DNA of 64,000 nt, from contig NZ_JAIMCG010000005.1 of assembly GCF_019795295.1 (NCBI RefSeq), forward strand, positions 1 through 64,000, read 5' to 3'. The translations under genes were made by a program, and so were the position numbers. Numbering within the stretch: the stretch's first letter is position 1; each line of letters starts with the position of its first letter. This DNA comes from Cupriavidus sp. AU9028. GTDB taxonomy: Bacteria; Pseudomonadota; Gammaproteobacteria; Burkholderiales; Burkholderiaceae. Shown here piece after piece: positions 3,095 to 8,997 of this stretch. The notes below the pieces were generated by a model. The model ran no database searches and had not been told where the DNA came from. It was given only the letters and a program-made list of their open reading frames with translations.

Positions 3095-3607
3095 TCAGGG
3101 GAATACAGGCACCGCCGGATCCATGCCGGCAAAGCGCGCCTCGGGGTGGGCGTTGCGCAGCAGGGTTTCGATTTCCTCGATGCGGCCGCGGGGCACGTCG
3201 ACCATCAGCAGGATGCGTCCTTCTGCAATGTCGCTGGTGAACGAGCGAAGCCGGCTGTTCGGGGCGGAGCTGCCGATCATGCTCGACACCCAGGCGCCGA
3301 ACATCGCGCCCAGCACGGCGAGCACGCCCACCAGGCCCCATTGCGGCGTGTCGCTGACGATGGGGAACATCGCGACAACCGCGCCAGCGACCACGCCGAC
3401 ACCGCCGCCTACGATCAGGCCCAGTTCGGCGGCGTGCACGATATCGGAGGTCTGGAACAGATTGGCTTCATGCAGCCCGCTCATGTCCTCGCCGTCGCGA
3501 GCGACGAAATGCATGTGCCGGTGTTCGATGCGGGCGAGCAGCAGATCGTCCATCGTGCGGCGGGCGCTGTGCACATCCGGCAGGAGCCAGTAGATACGCT
3601 TGCGCAT
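3095..3607 (-). CDS. Small membrane protein of the DUF1269-like stress family
   Basis: 170 residues from the ATG at 3607, chosen because GGAGGACTCGCC places a good ribosome binding site in front of it; the longer open frame starting at 3697 lacks one and encodes a non-conserved lead. The N-terminal part is soluble, followed by two glycine-rich hydrophobic segments (roughly 60-110) and a C-terminal soluble part with a valine-rich strand. This layout matches DUF1269 proteins, an uncharacterised family of membrane-associated proteins often found among stress genes. Function unknown. Confidence 0.7.
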   Translation of the reverse strand: MRKRIYWLLPDVHSARRTMDDLLLARIEHRHMHFVARDGEDMSGLHEANLFQTSDIVHAAELGLIVGGGVGVVAGAVVAMFPIVSDTPQWGLVGVLAVLGAMFGAWVSSMIGSSAPNSRLRSFTSDIAEGRILLMVDVPRGRIEEIETLLRNAHPEARFAGMDPAVPVFP

Positions 3608-3759: not shown

Positions 3760-5193
3760 TCAGAACGTGATCGGCAACCGCACGTTGACCTGGACGTCCG
3801 GCGTATCGCGCGTCAGGCCGGCTCCCACCGAGACGTTCAGCGTGTAGCGATTGGTGAACCGGTAGGAGTAGCCGACCAGCAAGGTGCCTTGCGTGATGCG
3901 CACCGAGCCGGGGACGGTCTGTCCGTTCTGCTTGGTCGGCCAGATGATGCTCTGGTCATAACCGATGCTGAACGACGCGCGCTCGTTCAGCGACAGGCCC
4001 ATGCCGAAGTTGAAGCCAAGGATGCCGCCGGGCGCGATCTTGCCCAGCGGTTCCTTCTCGCCATTCAGTACCGTGCGGCTGAGCCCGTCCCGGGCGAAAT
4101 TGTGCAGGTAGCTGATGGTGCCGAAGAACACGGCGGGATCGGTTGGCAGCAGCCAGGTCAGCCCGGGCTGGATGGCCTGGAAGCCGGTGCCGGTGGGCTG
4201 TCCCAGCGGCAGGCCGGTGCCGGTGGTATTGCCGACGCAGCGCTGCACGCAATCGGTGACGACATCGAAGGGGCTGCGGCCGGTATTGGACTTGTAGCGC
4301 AGCCAGCCGATGAAGAACGGCATGCGGTCGTTGCCGTAGTTGAGCTGATAGCGCAGCGTCGCTTCCACGTCGCCCAGGCCGCTGCCGCTCGAATCGAATA
4401 CGTTGTCGACGGCACTGCCGGTGAAGACCTCCCGGCTGATGGTCGAGCCGGAGGTGCGCACGTACGGCACCTTGGCCTCGATCTCCAGGCGCTTGGTCAG
4501 GCCGTAGCGGAAGGCGACCGAGGTGACATAGGTGGATGTCTTGACTTCGCGCACGTCGATCAGCCCGATCAGGATGGCCGGGATGACCGTATAGCCGACC
4601 AGCGCGACGCGGTTGTTCGACGAGTAGCCGTACTGGAACGCCGGTTCGACGACGAGCTTGCCCTGCGGCGTGAGCACCCCTGGCTGATCGAAGATGGGCG
4701 CGATTTCCGGCGGACGGGTCGGCGCTTCGGGCGGCTTGCCGACCGGCTCCTGCGCTTGCGCCACCATCGCCGGGGTGGCCGGCGTGCCGCCCGAGGGGCC
4801 AGCCGTGGGACCGGCCGGAGCCTGGCGGGGATCGACCGGTACGTTGGTGGTATTGGGCAGGCCCGTCATGCCGCTGGCGCCGGCCTGCGCTGCCGCCGCG
4901 CCGGTGGCCATGTCGCCGCCGGTCACTGCAGGCGCACGCTGGCCGCCGCGCCGGGTGGCCAGCGCGTCCAGCCCGAGCACGCCGCGCAGTTCCCGGATGG
5001 TCTGCTCCTGCAGCGCCATCGAACGCCGCATCGCCTCCAGCGCCGCCGCCTGTTCGGCGACCTCGCGCTGCAGCGCCTCCACCCTGGCCGCGGTATCCGG
5101 TGGGTCGACGGTCTGTGCGTGTGCCAGCCCTCCCAGCAGCAGCAGCGTCGAGCACCCCGCGCTACGAATGCCTCGCATCGAAGCGTTGTTCAT
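3760..5193 (-). CDS. fapF: Outer-membrane beta-barrel, FapF-like amyloid export protein
   Basis: 477 residues from the ATG at 5193 (GGGGGAGACAACG ribosome site). A signal peptide ends near residue 26 (AHA), then a heptad-like helical region (about 33-75) predicts a coiled coil, then a Gly/Pro/Thr-rich linker, then a C-terminal domain of alternating polar/aromatic strands ending in F, as in outer-membrane barrels. FapF of Pseudomonas is a trimeric barrel with an N-terminal coiled-coil plug that exports the Fap amyloid. This is the last gene of a five-gene minus-strand operon that also has a C39-like protease and a Gly-rich exported protein, which is what makes FapF more likely than an unrelated porin. 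Assigned by architecture and context, not by alignment. Confidence 0.65.
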   Translation of the reverse strand: MNNASMRGIRSAGCSTLLLLGGLAHAQTVDPPDTAARVEALQREVAEQAAALEAMRRSMALQEQTIRELRGVLGLDALATRRGGQRAPAVTGGDMATGAAAAQAGASGMTGLPNTTNVPVDPRQAPAGPTAGPSGGTPATPAMVAQAQEPVGKPPEAPTRPPEIAPIFDQPGVLTPQGKLVVEPAFQYGYSSNNRVALVGYTVIPAILIGLIDVREVKTSTYVTSVAFRYGLTKRLEIEAKVPYVRTSGSTISREVFTGSAVDNVFDSSGSGLGDVEATLRYQLNYGNDRMPFFIGWLRYKSNTGRSPFDVVTDCVQRCVGNTTGTGLPLGQPTGTGFQAIQPGLTWLLPTDPAVFFGTISYLHNFARDGLSRTVLNGEKEPLGKIAPGGILGFNFGMGLSLNERASFSIGYDQSIIWPTKQNGQTVPGSVRITQGTLLVGYSYRFTNRYTLNVSVGAGLTRDTPDVQVNVRLPITF

Positions 5194-5256
5194 CGTTGTC
5201 TCCCCCGGGGACGGACTGATTGGGCAGGCGTCCGCTGCCTGCATGGTTGCGGTGTT

Positions 5257-6201
5257 CTACCGCAGGCTCGCTGCCCGCTGCAGTGCGCTATCCAACGCTG
5301 CGCCGACGACTCCGGCGCGGAAGGCCTGCAGCGTGTTCACCCCCGCGTCGATGGTCAGCAAGCTCTGGATCGATTGGTTGTTCAAGGTGTTCTGGATCAC
5401 CGTCGCCGGCGTGCCGGCCAGCGATGCGGCATCGAAGCGGTTGCCCGGCCCGTTCTGCACCAGATTGAGCAGCCCATTGGTGGCCACTGTGCCGGTGGCG
5501 GTGCCGATCACGGCTGCCGGCGCATCGGGCAGCACCGCCGCCGGCGGCGTGGCAGCAAGCGGGGGCGGCACGGGCGCCGCCGTTTGCCCGGGCTGGGCGA
5601 TTGCAGCGGGATTGGGGGGCGCGGACGCGGCGGTGCCAGGCGCGGCGGTGCCGCCATTGCCGGCCAGGCCGCCCGGTGCAGGCGCCGTGCCGCCCGAGGT
5701 GGCGCTCGCCAGTCCGCCAAGCGCCGCGCTGACGGCCGCATTGGCGGCATCGGCAGCGGTCTGCCCCGCCGCCGCGCCCGCCGCTGCCGCGTTGGCTCCC
5801 GCGGTGGCGGTGTTCTGCAGCGCCGAGGCCAGGCGCGCGGCCTGTTCGGAGGTGATGCGGCTGACGTCGGGAATGACCAGACTGGTGGACACCACCAGGT
5901 CGCCATTGACATAGACCGCGCGCGAGATGCCGAACGAGACCTGCAGACCGCCGGTTTCGAAGCCGCCGCGCAAGGCGTCCAGACGCTCGCTGTCGACCGG
6001 CTGCCAATGGGCCATCGCGTCGCGGGCCGATGGCAGGTCCTGGCCGGTCAACGGGTTCAGGGCCGACGCGGTGCCGGCCACCGGGGCGGACGCGATCGAC
6101 GCGGCGGCATAGGTCGCCGCGCCGAGGACGGCCACCGTCCATGTCAATCCACTCCGCCATGGGCAGCGGCGCCGCACCGGTTCGCCGCAATCGATATCCA
6201 T
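5257..6201 (-). CDS. Exported partner protein of the amyloid-like operon (FapE-like position)
   Basis: 314 residues. A hydrophobic segment at about 19-43 gives a signal peptide or anchor. Residues 69-80 read VDSERLDALRGG, nearly the same as a motif in the other small gene of this operon (6905-7321). The middle is very rich in Ala, Gly and Pro; near residue 265 there is VIQNT followed by Gln/Asn-rich strands typical of amyloid-type proteins. The start follows AGGAGCAATC, and the gene begins 8 bp after the stop of the C39 protease gene, so the two are co-transcribed. Its position between protease and barrel is that of fapE in Pseudomonas. Role (minor fibre component or chaperone) is inferred. 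Confidence 0.65.
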   Translation of the reverse strand: MDIDCGEPVRRRCPWRSGLTWTVAVLGAATYAAASIASAPVAGTASALNPLTGQDLPSARDAMAHWQPVDSERLDALRGGFETGGLQVSFGISRAVYVNGDLVVSTSLVIPDVSRITSEQAARLASALQNTATAGANAAAAGAAAGQTAADAANAAVSAALGGLASATSGGTAPAPGGLAGNGGTAAPGTAASAPPNPAAIAQPGQTAAPVPPPLAATPPAAVLPDAPAAVIGTATGTVATNGLLNLVQNGPGNRFDAASLAGTPATVIQNTLNNQSIQSLLTIDAGVNTLQAFRAGVVGAALDSALQRAASLR

Positions 6202-6209
6202 GATTGCTC

Positions 6210-6908
6210 CTAGAAGTCGCCCGCGCCGTTCCTCGGCATGACGGTGAAGAACAGGCTGTCCCGGTTCACGCCCATCCAGTACGGCCCGGTCGGCGCGACG
6301 CGCCAGTCGGCGGACTGATTGAAGCGGGCCTGCTCGGTCCGGTTGTGAATCACGAACAGCAACTGGCTGTCCCAGATGCGCTCGAAATGCGCTCGCGACA
6401 GTGCCCGCGTGCCCAGCGCCGGATCGCCGACCAGCACGCGGTCGCCACGCACGCCCTTCACGACGACGAAATGGTGATAGCCGTTCTCGACCACCAGCAC
6501 GATGGCCGGGACCTGGGTTTCCTCCAGCTTGGACAGCGGCAGCTCGAAGCCATCGGCCATGTAGCCGCGCGATTCGAGGAAGCGCTTCATGTCCAGCAGC
6601 GAGAAGCCCTCCTGCTGGATCTTGGCGCGGTCGCCGCGCAGGTACATCTGCTGGAAGACTTCGGCTTCGGTCACCGGGTGGCCGTACTGGTAGGTCAGCA
6701 AGGTCGCGATGGCGGCCGATCCGCAGCTGAAGTCGTATTGCTGGCGGATGGTGGTGCGAAAGCGCGCTTCCTTCAGGCTGACCGTGCGGACCTTGTATTC
6801 GCCGCCGAGGATGGGAATGACGGCATCCGCCGCCTGTCCCGGGGGCGCGAACGCACCCGCGGCGATCAGCAGCGGCAGCGCCAGCGTCGCAAGCCTTCGA
6901 AGCGTCAT
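6210..6908 (-). CDS. fapD: C39-like cysteine protease, FapD-like
   Basis: 232 residues, with a signal peptide (hydrophobic 7-22, Ala-X-Ala near 25-27). The peptidase C39 core is recognisable: Q56/Q57 upstream of the nucleophile C62 in the YDFSCGSAA context, H145/H146 in the HHFVVVKG block, and D162 in GDPALG. Family C39 enzymes normally cut after double-glycine leaders; stand-alone periplasmic C39-like proteins include FapD, which is required for Fap amyloid production. The ATG overlaps the TGA of the upstream gene (ATGA), so translation is probably coupled. No ABC transporter domain is attached, which separates it from bacteriocin exporters. Confidence 0.8.
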   Translation of the reverse strand: MTLRRLATLALPLLIAAGAFAPPGQAADAVIPILGGEYKVRTVSLKEARFRTTIRQQYDFSCGSAAIATLLTYQYGHPVTEAEVFQQMYLRGDRAKIQQEGFSLLDMKRFLESRGYMADGFELPLSKLEETQVPAIVLVVENGYHHFVVVKGVRGDRVLVGDPALGTRALSRAHFERIWDSQLLFVIHNRTEQARFNQSADWRVAPTGPYWMGVNRDSLFFTVMPRNGAGDF

Positions 6909-7321
6909 GGCTGGAACTGCACGTTCAGGATGGTCGCGCTCTGGATCAGCGTATTGGCGCCGGTGTTCTGGATGACCGTCGGCAGGCCGCTGGCATTGGC
7001 AAAGGCACCCTCGGTAATGGCATTGCTGCCGGTGATCACGCGGTTGGCCACGTTATCGGCGACCGTGCCGGCCAGTTGCATGTCGTTGACGACCAGTTCG
7101 GCGCCGCCTCGGATCTGCGCCAGCCGCTCGGTGTCCAGTGGCGCGCCGAACCGGGCCGACGGCTCGGCTTGCGGAGTCGCCGATTTTGTTCCTGATGGTG
7201 TCGCGGGATCGGCATGGGCAGGCGCCGCATGTGGCTCCAGCGCCGAAGCGGCGGCGTCAACCGCCGGCCACACCAGCAGGATCGCCGTCAGCGTAGCGGC
7301 GGCGATGCGATTCGAACGCAT
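6905..7321 (-). CDS. Small exported protein with a double-glycine-like motif and VIQNT repeat
   Basis: 138 residues from the ATG at 7321, preceded by GAGGAGG 8 nt upstream; the longer frame to 7429 has no such site. A signal peptide covers about 1-26, followed by an Ala/Pro-rich linker. Residues 62-73 read LDTERLAQIRGG, which resembles the leader motif recognised by C39 proteases, and residues 116-137 (VIQNTGAN then alternating hydrophobic and Gln/Asn residues) look like a short amyloid-type repeat. It shares both elements with the 5257-6201 product. Lying just before the protease gene, it may be a nucleator or substrate; that is inference. Confidence 0.7.
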   Translation of the reverse strand: MRSNRIAAATLTAILLVWPAVDAAASALEPHAAPAHADPATPSGTKSATPQAEPSARFGAPLDTERLAQIRGGAELVVNDMQLAGTVADNVANRVITGSNAITEGAFANASGLPTVIQNTGANTLIQSATILNVQFQP

Positions 7322-7484
7322 GATGAAGGCCTCCTCGTTCCTGCGCGCGGCGGGGCTGCCGCGGCGCAGGGTTGCTGCTGTTGACAGGACATCGGCAGGC
7401 GACGCGCAGTGGACAGCCACGGCGCGCACGGCGGGAGGCCGCTCCCGCTTCGCGCGCCGAAGCCGTCAGCCGCCGCGCATCGGC

Positions 7485-8876
7485 TTAGCGACCGACCGCC
7501 AGGTTGGCCTGCACCGTGACCGCCTGCTGCACCAGAGAGCCGAGGCCGCTGTTCTGGTTGGCGATCATCACGCCGGCAGCGGACTGGCCGACGCTTGTCA
7601 TGGCATTGGACATATTGAAGGTGCCCGCATCGGCCAGGGCATTGCCACCTGCCCCGCCCGCGCCGCCGGCCGCACCGTTGCCCACGCCGCCGGTGCCGCC
7701 CGCGCCCGCGCCACCGGCGCCACCCGCGCCGCTGGATGCGCCGGCGGCCCCGACCGCACCGTTGCCGGCCGTCGAGTTGCCATTGCTCGCCGTGGTGGTC
7801 GCGCCGCCATTGGAGGCGTTGCCACCTGCCCCGCCGTTACCGGCCACGCTGTTCTGCGCGCCGCCCGCGCCGCCCGTGCCAGGGCCCGCGCCTGCCGTCG
7901 CGGTCGCGGCGCCGCCGGTGCCGGCCCCGCCGGCTCCGCCGGTGCCGGTGCCCGCGCCGCCGCTGGCCGTCACCGCGCCGTTGGTGCCGCCCGAACCCGC
8001 GCCGCCGGTCGACGTCGAGGTGCCGCCGGTCGCGGCCGCATCGCTGCCGCTACCGGCCAGCGAGCCGCGGCCGGTCGAATCCGAGGCGCCGCCATCGCCA
8101 CCGCCCGATGCACTGCCGGCCGCGCTGCTGCCGCCCGCGCCGCCAGCCAGACCGCCGAGGCCGCCGGCGCCCAGGCTCGCGCTGAGCGCGCCGCCACCCC
8201 GGCCGGTGCCGGTGCCGCCCGTGCCGGCGGTACCGGTCGCCTGACCGCCGTAGCCGCCGCGTCCTGCCGTCGAGCTGCCGTTGCTGGCATCGCCAGCCGT
8301 GGAGCTGCCGACCGTGGCGCTGCCACCGCTGCCGCCATTGCCGCCGTTGCCGCCCGCACCGCTATTGCCGCCGTCACCGCCGGTGCCACCGTAGGCCGCG
8401 CCGCCGGTGCCATTGCCGCCACGGCCCCCCACTCCGCCGCTGGCATTGCCGGCCTGCAGCGCCACGTTGCCGATGTGGCTGACGGTCAGACCGCTGACCG
8501 TGCCGGACAGACGCGTCGCCGCCACGGCGGTGCTGGTATTGAACGCATTGGCGAAGTTGGCATTGGCCGTGCCGCCGTTGTTCGCCGCGGCATTGCCATA
8601 GCCGGCGGCGTTCCAGGCCCGGCCCGCGTTGTCGGAGGCGGTCTTGTTGGTGGTCCTGGTGTCGTTGCGATTGATGGTGGAGGTGCTGTTGTCCTGATAC
8701 GCCTCGGAATACTCGTTCGCCTGCGGCCCGGCACCCGTCTGGGTGTTAACCGCGGCAGTGGACTGGATGTTGTCTCCATCGACTCTGCGCTCTGCGGTGT
8801 TGGACTGCTGCGCGAACGCCTGGCCGGCAGTGCCGAGGGCCAGCGCGATGGCGGAAGCGAGTAAGGTCTTTTTCAT
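7485..8876 (-). CDS. Gly-rich exported protein, candidate amyloid fibre subunit (FapC/FapB-like)
   Basis: 463 residues. Signal peptide 1-22 (cleavage AFA), then a polar Asn/Thr-rich N-terminal region (23-145), a long low-complexity core (about 146-410) made of GGAGG/GGxGG-type runs resembling PE_PGRS domains, and a C-terminal block (411-463) with Asn/Gln-rich strands ending QQAVTVQANLAVGR, which resembles the ends of FapB/FapC subunits. The classical Fap imperfect repeats with linkers are not present; instead one Gly-rich block separates the two Asn/Gln-rich ends. First gene of the operon, 163 bp ahead of the next gene, with a sigma-54 promoter upstream. The fibre role is inferred from operon context. 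Confidence 0.7.
   Translation of the reverse strand: MKKTLLASAIALALGTAGQAFAQQSNTAERRVDGDNIQSTAAVNTQTGAGPQANEYSEAYQDNSTSTINRNDTRTTNKTASDNAGRAWNAAGYGNAAANNGGTANANFANAFNTSTAVAATRLSGTVSGLTVSHIGNVALQAGNASGGVGGRGGNGTGGAAYGGTGGDGGNSGAGGNGGNGGSGGSATVGSSTAGDASNGSSTAGRGGYGGQATGTAGTGGTGTGRGGGALSASLGAGGLGGLAGGAGGSSAAGSASGGGDGGASDSTGRGSLAGSGSDAAATGGTSTSTGGAGSGGTNGAVTASGGAGTGTGGAGGAGTGGAATATAGAGPGTGGAGGAQNSVAGNGGAGGNASNGGATTTASNGNSTAGNGAVGAAGASSGAGGAGGAGAGGTGGVGNGAAGGAGGAGGNALADAGTFNMSNAMTSVGQSAAGVMIANQNSGLGSLVQQAVTVQANLAVGR
7620..8440 (-). repeat. Low-complexity Gly-codon repeat region inside the fibre candidate gene
   Basis: About 0.8 kb of degenerate GGC/GCC/GGT triplet repeats encoding the Gly-rich core. 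Units are imperfect and of mixed length, so this is not a regular tandem array, but it is the kind of DNA prone to replication slippage and to assembly collapse. It also yields long spurious open frames in other reading frames. Confidence 0.7.
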
Positions 8877-8980
8877 ACGAAACTCCAGGAGGGTTTTCCG
8901 GTGTCGTCGCCGGCGCCACTACGTTCGGGAAGCGGTGCGCCAGACGCAGGTTGGGCATGGGGCCGAACCGAAGCCCCCCG

Positions 8981-8997
8981 CGCATATTCGGTGCCAA
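8981..8997 (-). promoter_or_regulatory. Sigma-54 (-24/-12) promoter for the amyloid-like operon
   Basis: On the minus strand TTGGCACCGAATATGCG matches the RpoN consensus TTGGCACGnnnnTTGCW at 10 of 13 defined positions, with the invariant GG (8994-8995) and GC (8982-8983) at the required 10-bp spacing. The start would lie near 8970, about 95 nt before the first ATG. An AT-rich tract directly upstream could bend the DNA for an enhancer-binding protein. RpoN control of fap operons has been described in Pseudomonas. Confidence 0.6.

Follow-up and report, generated by a model that had tools for sequence, protein, structure and literature searches.

Introduction

Among described systems, the closest point of comparison for the locus studied here is Fap of Pseudomonas, encoded by fapABCDEF, in which fapA is reported to be frequently deleted (PMC3792158). 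In their treatment of secretion, Rouse et al. (PMC5557850) describe FapD as an essential periplasmic protease whose Cys is required for secretion, a C38A mutant having abolished it, and give its target as unknown as of 2017. A figure legend published in 2023 presents FapC as modified by FapD (PMC10638192). C39 peptidases also occur as domains of ABC transporters, the PCATs; their leaders follow a rule (PMC6363468) of Leu at -12, Glu at -8, Leu at -7, a hydrophobic residue at -4 and a double Gly, and the pocket of LahT is narrow at -1. NCBIfam lists a further 'putative pilus system', Fil, with the FilB peptidase and the FilC barrel.

Here we analysed a 64,000-nucleotide stretch of DNA from Cupriavidus sp. 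AU9028 (the window), in which an earlier note had proposed a Fap-type functional amyloid operon. We conclude that this is probably a Fap-like operon for the secretion of surface fibres, with leaders cut by a C39 peptidase, and a sister to Pseudomonas Fap.

Results

A conserved five-gene operon

The window contains five minus-strand open reading frames, g1 to g5, in the order that the earlier note had given, and this order is conserved in related loci (Table 1). The reading frames of g2 and g3 share 4 bases, and the remaining spacers measure 163 (g1-g2), 8 (g3-g4) and 63 bases (g4-g5). Since the start codon of g1 lies at 8876, the end first assigned to the operon, 8997, was too far. Among the 80 related loci retained for gene-presence counts, some of which are interrupted by contig ends, g1 is present in 74, g2 in 79, g3 and g4 in all 80 and g5 in 74. 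The five genes are real and are kept together.

Table 1. Features of the operon in the window
Feature	Position	Strand	Description
g1, exported Gly-rich protein	7485-8876	minus	463 aa; conserved N- and C-terminal segments, exchangeable low-complexity core
g2, small exported protein	6905-7321	minus	138 aa; double-glycine leader, then single Fap-type repeat
Double-glycine leader of g2	7103-7138	minus	residues 62-73 (LDTERLAQIRGG); from alignment of 101 g2
Fap-type repeat of g2	6911-7027	minus	C-terminal ~39 residues; from profile comparisons
g3, C39 peptidase, FapD relative	6210-6908	minus	232 aa; signal peptide read by eye; Q56, C62, H146, D162
g4, FapE-like exported protein	5257-6201	minus	314 aa
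Double-glycine leader of g4	5962-5997	minus	residues 69-80 (VDSERLDALRGG); from alignment of 99 g4
g5, outer-membrane pore, FapF-type	3760-5193	minus	477 aa; coiled coil, disordered linker, barrel
Leader-like stretch of g5	4942-4977	minus	residues 73-84 (LGLDALATRRGG), coiled-coil end; L78, R82 invariant 28/28

In 150 genomes drawn evenly across the order, g2 was found in 13, exactly those with a g3 match at E ≤ 3e-41. g1 occurred in 10 genomes, each of which belongs to the 13 that have a close window-type peptidase, and none of the 150 carried g1 without the peptidase. A Gly-rich gene widespread without the protease, which had been named as evidence against a Fap-type operon, was thus not seen. 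One genome (G012) has both a window-type and a classical fap operon (loci L115 and L139). Searches around two further genomes, G140 and G132, yielded 1 and 4 genomes, respectively. The FapD genes that score over the NCBIfam cut-off derive from the order of G007, and loci L196-L201 are called presumed Pseudomonas on the basis of such FapD scores alone. A PHROGs search gave no match for g1, g2 or g4 at E up to 0.1, and the signal in promoter and terminator scans was close to the shuffled level.

g3 and g5 are relatives of FapD and FapF

The product of g3 matches Pfam Peptidase_C39 (E 1.8e-23) and, under the cut-off in both cases, the NCBIfam models C39_FapD (E 5e-39) and FilB (E 3e-37). Its FapD score of 133.8 bits falls below the cut-off of 330; comparison FapD proteins reach 401-441 bits in six genomes that belong to a single family. 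A homologue among the C39 domains of PCAT transporters is found in the PDB (6mpz, E 1.2e-6). The protease active site that had been read from the sequence is borne out: Q56, C62, H146 and D162 are invariant in 107/107 window-type, 26/26 classical and 23/23 third-class aligned peptidases, a comparison made without two loci with broken frames (L195, L140) and the window itself (L001). Window-type peptidases form a clade separate from classical FapD in a tree from which two near-identical or gappy rows were left out. The classes differ at columns 58 (Y/T), 64 (S/A), 119 (D/R) and 167 (T/N). For an acidic pocket in classical FapD that would accommodate Arg or Lys, the column comparison gave no clear acidic change.

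Similarly, g5 matches NCBIfam FapF at E 8e-37 with 127 bits, under the cut-off of 700, and is also matched by the FilC model under its cut-off. FapF chains in the PDB match the g5 sequence (E 9e-25 to 1e-23), and the predicted fold (mean pLDDT 65) comprises a helix at 34-72, a disordered linker and a barrel; the top 18 PDB matches of this predicted structure are all FapF chains. The coiled coil and barrel claimed by the earlier note therefore agree with both sequence and predicted fold, and the unrelated porin that it had weighed against them did not appear. As in Fap, a C39 peptidase with intact catalytic residues lies near a FapF-type pore.

The Fap-type repeat lies in g2

The amyloid subunit with the best support, as judged from profiles, is g2 and not the Gly-rich g1, because mature g2, ~65 residues after the leader, resembles one Fap amyloid repeat. 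When a profile of the g2 C-terminus was searched against 1829 ORFs from 26 classical loci, the top 17 comprised 8 FapB, 3 short repeat proteins, 5 FapE and 1 unlabelled protein with three repeats in FapB's place, the FapB and FapC labels being assigned by script from position (three FapB-sized proteins got FapC). These matches are in register with the Fap repeats; the best E is 6.4e-6 and three fall below 1e-3. In the reverse search, a Fap-repeat profile against 6013 ORFs placed g2 in 19 of the top 20 positions, each individually weak (best E 0.1). The g2-FapB profile-profile match is weak as well (hhalign 18%). One repeat in g2 and none recognised in g1 fall short of the at least two per subunit by which Fap was judged.

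The earlier note had taken the Gly-rich g1 for the fibre. Its Gly-rich core is real, and resembles the long Gly-rich low-complexity core of PE_PGRS proteins; g1 differs from these in that it matches no Pfam family at E up to 1, nor any NCBIfam family at that level. We consider it rather unlikely, though compatible with leader cleavage, that the fibre or matrix consists mainly of g1, with g2 and g4 acting just as initiators or anchors. Apart from the pore, no exported product of the operon is larger than g1, which lies upstream of a fapD-like gene as fapC does; a structural role is suggested by its Gly-rich or DNS-repeat cores, and its C-terminus shares a motif with that of g2. Against this, the g1 C-terminus does not match the repeats of FapC (hhalign probability 0.1%) or FapB (3.8%), its profile retrieves few Fap subunits (6 in the top 20, best E 0.08), and relatives differ in the kind of core they have. 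A g1 homologous to FapC was dropped, as it is without profile support and ranks poorly.

g4 resembles FapE over a short stretch

Positioned between peptidase and pore, g4 occupies the place of FapE. The g4 and FapE profiles match with an hhalign probability of 90.6% (single-pair E 1.3e-6) over 38 columns only, which are the leader and an adjoining FGI/FGV stretch. When six classical FapE alone served as the model, g4 accounted for 22/42 and 44/71 of the matches with E ≤ 10 that lay outside the classical loci, single matches being weak (best E 4e-4, at L128; 0.005 within the 80 loci). An E of 7.5e-17 is inflated because that g4 was itself part of the iterated model, whose members included two g4 proteins and a FapB-type protein. 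The structure model of g4 is of low confidence (mean pLDDT 62). The likeness of g4 to FapE is short and counts as a doubt.

g2 and g4 carry double-glycine leaders

Both g2 and g4 carry a double-glycine leader, the feature of the operon that tells most and one on which the earlier note was silent. The pattern, an aliphatic residue at -12, Leu -7, Arg -3 and Gly-Gly, is kept inside N-termini that are unalignable. In 99 aligned g4, L-7 is found in 98 and R-3, G-2 and G-1 in all 99; in 101 aligned g2, the counts are L-7 101, R-3 91, G-2 97 and G-1 82, with one Ala at -1 and 19/101 rows lacking Gly there. Six g4 and two g2 rows are misaligned at the GG column, and the six g4 (L051, L056, L129, L131, L133, L138) contain the motif by regex. 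In the window, both proteins have an aliphatic -12, Leu -7, Gly -2 and Gly, Ala or Ser at -1, consistent with the C39 rule (PMC6363468). Thus, g2 and g4 carry what appears to be a site normally cut by C39 peptidases, and cleavage there may be inferred.

Classical FapE carries a related stretch. Across 28 aligned sequences, G-2 is found in 28, R-3 in 27, L/M-7 in 28 and R/K-1 in 28; positions -12, -7 and -2 fit in 28/28, and the small residue at -1 is absent from all 28, so that the full leader pattern is not present. A leader model of the window type ranked FapE first (19) or second (7) in 26/26 classical loci, with a median of 76 ORFs per locus, and column-shuffled models ranked it that high in 2, 0 and 2 of the 26. 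Training on classical FapE alone put g4 first in 33/80 loci and g2 in 8/79. Should g4 be a homologue of FapE, the motif that they share would not be independent, which leaves only g2 as independent evidence. The Arg/Lys at -1 and the narrow LahT pocket weaken the case for Fap itself. Additionally, in FapE of presumed Pseudomonas the last leader residue lies at about position 40; in the peptide data of Rouse et al. (PMC5557850), FapE peptides are absent from the first ~70 residues. Peptides from 41-70 should have appeared, so the published data fit only partly. 'GA' stretches in FapB of some classical loci were rejected as C39 sites because they lie within the repeat region and FapB and FapC are given as not processed in the same account.

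We regard it as improbable that the leader is an uncut helix by which FapD or FapF docks, the FapD target lying elsewhere, for instance in the FapF linker or FapC. The R/K at -1 of classical FapE is unlike known double-glycine sites, and the linker of g5 holds a leader-like stretch in which L78 and R82 are invariant (28/28) and which is a possible additional cut site. Cleavage of FapF was considered by Rouse et al. (PMC5557850), and FapC is named in the 2023 legend (PMC10638192). However, GG is present in 99/99 aligned g4, and an RG-type motif before the barrel, found by regex in 52/98 window-type barrels (61/98 when motifs at any place in residues 1-300 are counted), occurs in 0/24 classical and 0/23 third-class barrels; this comparison leaves out three barrels shorter than 300 residues. 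Invariant Q, C, H and D in three classes, together with the loss of secretion in C38A, indicate that the FapD enzyme cuts something. A reading of g2 as a small bacteriocin-type or signalling peptide, secreted after processing by a C39 peptidase as in microcin systems, with the fibre idea a misreading, is very improbable: a double-glycine leader, a C39 peptidase and a ~65-residue mature peptide are the classic arrangement, but g2, g4 and the peptidase seem Sec-exported (by eye), a FapF-type pore is present, an ABC transporter is absent among the five operon genes, and mature g2 resembles a Fap repeat.

Discussion

Proposed mechanism and significance

From the observed homologies, conservation, co-occurrence and leader motif, with its prediction across classes, we infer the secretion of cleaved, amyloid fibre subunits. 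All five products would traverse the inner membrane via Sec, as signal peptides read by eye suggest. For g2 and g4, the features of the helical leader that periplasmic g3 recognises would be an aliphatic residue at -12, Leu at -7 and a residue at -4 that is hydrophobic in most cases; judging from motif and family, g3 would cut after Arg-Gly-Gly. The released g2 and g4, with leaderless g1, would then exit through the g5 pore and assemble at the cell surface. A Q/N-rich C-terminal motif shared by g1, g2 and g4 (hhalign 94% for g1-g2, 96% for g4-g2) would be their common element for assembly or for recruitment to the pore. FapD would cut classical FapE at the corresponding site, after or within Arg-Gly-Arg/Lys.

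More broadly, and tentatively, the bacteriocin double-glycine leader, moved to the periplasm, could serve FapD-type secretion in general as a code for release. The same helical leader would mark the exported subunits of each class and, in some barrels, the pore linker; the main difference would be the residue before the cut, which is Gly in window-type systems, Arg/Lys in Fap and perhaps Gln in Fil-like systems. In the 23 third-class loci, g2, g4 and FapE found no match, and L-D-D..L..TGQ-type stretches occur in 10/23 by regex, two of them probably by chance.

Two exported partners of the window peptidase have a textbook C39 site, and a matching stretch in FapE narrows any test to one short region. 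The question of the FapD target is now testable, because FapE has the same leader with Arg/Lys at -1 and ranked first or second in every classical locus. If true, the mechanism would explain how amyloid subunits are held in the periplasm and released, would link amyloid secretion to bacteriocin maturation and would provide a target through which biofilm fibres could be blocked. With its Gly-rich or DNS-repeat core, g1 may be a biofilm material so far unstudied.

Comparison with known systems

By sequence, the window operon is a sister system of Pseudomonas Fap and not Fap itself, because g3 and g5 score far under the cut-offs, the peptidase has its own clade and one genome holds both operons. 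Of the fapC/D/E/F logic claimed at the outset, the C39 peptidase and the FapF-type pore stand, with g4, whose likeness to FapE is short, between them; membership of Fap proper is not supported. Like Fap, the operon has these three in the order D-E-F and a small subunit with a Fap-type repeat (g2), and FapE has a leader-like stretch. Unlike Fap, it has the Gly-rich g1 and no recognised multi-repeat FapB or FapC, and most window-type leaders end in a true GG. It has no gene at FapA's place, as judged from position. The Fil system likewise combines a C39 peptidase with a FapF-like barrel, but the third-class loci, some of which score best with FilC, form another peptidase clade. PCAT transporters (LahT, ComA, PCAT1) share the leader with hydrophobic -12, -7 and -4 residues and Gly-Gly and have a homologous peptidase; in contrast to theirs, the window peptidase is free and apparently Sec-exported, as are its putative substrates.

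Homology of the operon to the Fap system

The genes g1 to g5 encode a Gly-rich exported protein, a small exported protein, a C39 peptidase, a FapE-like protein and a FapF-type pore. The earlier note's assignment of a C39-like protease was borne out, since g3 matched Pfam C39 (E 1.8e-23), but its NCBIfam matches to FapD (E 5e-39) and FilB (E 3e-37) each fell under the cut-off. The PDB double-glycine protease 6mpz also matched g3 (E 1.2e-6). The g5 product matched FapF in NCBIfam (under the cut-off) and in the PDB (E 9e-25 to 1e-23), and its AlphaFold model, built with 28 sequences, consists of a 39-residue helix, then a long disordered linker, then a barrel (mean pLDDT 65). In the PDB, the 18 best matches to this model are all FapF chains and the COG4313 channel comes next, in agreement with the coiled-coil FapF-type barrel proposed in the earlier note. 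No Pfam or NCBIfam family matched g1 or g2 at E up to 1. The sole NCBIfam match of g4, to FlgM, was weak (E 0.012, under the cut-off) and was disregarded. The small membrane-type protein beyond g5 matched no family over the cut-off; similar ORFs occur in 26 of 81 loci searched.

Coordinates of features in the window and in fetched loci
Feature	Sequence	Coordinates	Strand	Description
g1 to g5	window	8876-3760	-	five genes, tight spacing
Small membrane-type protein	window	3095-3607	-	directly downstream of g5
Duplicated block	locus L211	4988-10370		g1-g2-g3-g4 twice in tandem beside one barrel gene
g1 ORF	locus L208	6985-8169		core of DNSDNS-type repeats, not Gly-rich; ends similar

Conservation and co-occurrence

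We scanned species genomes with g3 and kept the best 80 of at least 437 relatives; by record title, the 80 loci are mostly from Burkholderiales and Xanthomonadales. Among these best 80, g3 and g4 are present in all, g2 in 79, and g1 and g5 in 74 each. The usual order is g1-g2-g3-g4, with g5 downstream or nearby on the opposite strand, and the gene order described for the window is conserved.

Independent occurrence was assessed in 150 genomes drawn evenly from the window's order. The g1 C-terminus was matched in 10, g2 in 13 and g3 in 36, of which 13 reached E 3e-41 or better. These are exactly the 13 g2 genomes, and all 10 g1 genomes are among them. Therefore, g1 without the peptidase was not seen in this sample, and the wide occurrence apart from the protease that would have counted against the earlier note did not appear. 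The members of the 13 without a g1 match are genomes G719, G762 and G781, the last with its operon at the very start of a contig.

Both peptidase copies of the L211 block score alike. Two consecutive g1 genes precede g2 in seven loci (L031, L037, L043, L044, L052, L062 and L077), all labelled Paraburkholderia.

Double-glycine leaders of g2 and g4

The leaders, numbered back from the putative C39 cut site, read L-D-T-E-R-L-A-Q-I-R-G-G (g2) and V-D-S-E-R-L-D-A-L-R-G-G (g4) in the window. Of 99 aligned g4 rows (six more were unaligned at the leader), 98 have Leu -7 and all 99 have Arg -3, Gly -2 and Gly -1. Over 101 aligned g2 rows (two more unaligned), the counts are 101, 91, 97 and 82, respectively. 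Position -4 is hydrophobic in most g4 and mixed in g2. While the preceding sequence is scarcely alignable, the leader positions L, R and G show little or no variation (30 g4 and 29 g2 aligned). The C39 rule from LahT and ComA calls for Leu at -12, Glu at -8, Leu at -7, a hydrophobic residue at -4 and double Gly (PMC6363468). With an all-leader profile, 230 of 10770 ORFs, training sequences included, reached at least 14 bits, versus 0 of 4757 shuffled ORFs.

Some g4 proteins (L016, L018) carry two clear tandem leader copies (RGGFDENACP and RGGFDPSLTR in L018), which might mean that a single precursor releases several pieces. In Paraburkholderia g4 ORFs (L028, L031, L034, L037, L043, L044, L056), some 370-460 residues precede the leader from the predicted starts, far more than at most other loci.

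A matching stretch in classical FapE

In 28 aligned FapE proteins from classical operons, -12 is L/V/I and -7 is L/M in all 28, -3 is R in 27 and -2 is G in 28; -1 is R or K in 28 and the next residue is aromatic in 26. The window-type leader profile (-12 to -2) predicted FapE across classes: with a median of 76 ORFs to choose from, it ranked FapE first in 19 of the 26 classical loci and second in the other 7. Column-shuffled profiles placed FapE in the top two in 2, 0 and 2 of 26 loci. With g2 leaders alone, FapE came first in 14 loci and within the top three in 20. With classical leaders as profile, g4 was first in 33 of 80 loci and g2 in 8 of 79, so leader transfer between classes works better in one direction. 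Besides the leader, the agreement of g4 with FapE is short (hhalign 90.6%, spanning only 38 columns). A model of six classical FapE matched g4 only weakly (best E 4e-4 in L128, 0.005 within the 80 loci), though 22 of 42 and 44 of 71 matches outside classical loci were g4 proteins.

The candidate amyloid subunit

The 26 classical loci, with 1829 ORFs, were searched with a profile of the last 52 residues of g2 (102 sequences). The 17 best matches of this profile were 8 FapB, 5 FapE, 3 FapB-sized repeat proteins (script-labelled FapC) and an unlabelled three-repeat protein, aligned in register with the Fap repeats; the best E was 6.4e-6, three were under 1e-3 and the others were weak. In the reverse search, g2 took 19 of the top 20 places among 6013 ORFs, each weak singly (best E 0.1), and the profile-profile score of g2 against FapB was weak (18%). 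A C-terminal motif is common to g2 and g1 (94%) and to g2 and g4 (96%). Neither profile comparison nor profile search matched g1 to Fap repeats. The earlier proposal of g1 as the fibre protein is thus disfavored, the repeat-like C-terminus being found in g2. The ends of g1 are conserved around a core that is Gly-rich in Burkholderiales and Xanthomonadales loci. The g1 of L209-L213 is, like that of L208, low in Gly, the full sequence reading covering L208 only.

Three peptidase classes

Further loci came from FapD-model searches of 369 genomes within the class and 293 from a different order, and were assigned by neighbours (and FapD score) as window-type (g2, g4), classical (FapE) or a third class (neither). 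A FastTree of the peptidases, keeping 106 of 107, 26 of 26 and 22 of 23, respectively, sets all three apart (support 1.0, 0.98, 0.81).

Some third-class loci encode exported proteins in which a stretch of the type L-[DES]-D..L..TGQ[AD]G, resembling a leader, lies close to the N-terminus (L142, L144, L220-L223, L226, L228); a regex found it in 10 of 23 third-class loci, two (L145, L227) probably by chance. On the 6.5 kb plasmid p5 of Acidithiobacillus sp. AMEEHan (L195), a FapE-type gene adjoins a C39 peptidase frame in two pieces.

Discussion

We read these sequences, as the best explanation, as a Fap-like unit for secretion in which g3, a free C39 peptidase in the periplasm, would remove the leaders of two putatively Sec-exported subunits, g2 and g4, and the freed subunits would pass the FapF-type pore g5 and may form amyloid. 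The homologies, conservation, co-occurrence and cross-class leader prediction are observed in the sequences, and cleavage, export and amyloid formation are inferred from them.

Possible cleavage of FapF itself has been proposed in the literature. A leader-like stretch closes the g5 coiled coil, with L78 and R82 unchanged in all 28 sequences compared. By regex, 52 of 98 window-type barrel proteins have an RG-type motif preceding the barrel, compared with none of 24 classical and none of 23 third-class ones. The leader-like stretch would fit this proposal for only part of the window-type barrels.

Rouse et al. 2017 describe Fap proteins as without canonical C39 sequences and the FapD target as unclear (PMC5557850), a 2018 review calls the FapD substrate yet to be determined (PMC6173800), and a 2023 docking paper says that FapD modifies FapC (PMC10638192). 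Rouse et al. also report FapE peptides as absent from the first about 70 residues (PMC5557850), which a putative site near residue 40 fits only partly.

In a library search judged by titles and abstract openings, we found no description of these leaders, though the existence of Fap relatives was already known: Dueholm et al. 2013 note that FapD and FapF models match larger families (PMC3792158), and the 2018 review lists fapD-fapF neighbours in five more phyla (PMC6173800). In genome G012, a classical operon (L115) occurs together with a window-type operon (L139), indicating different systems rather than one diverged in place.
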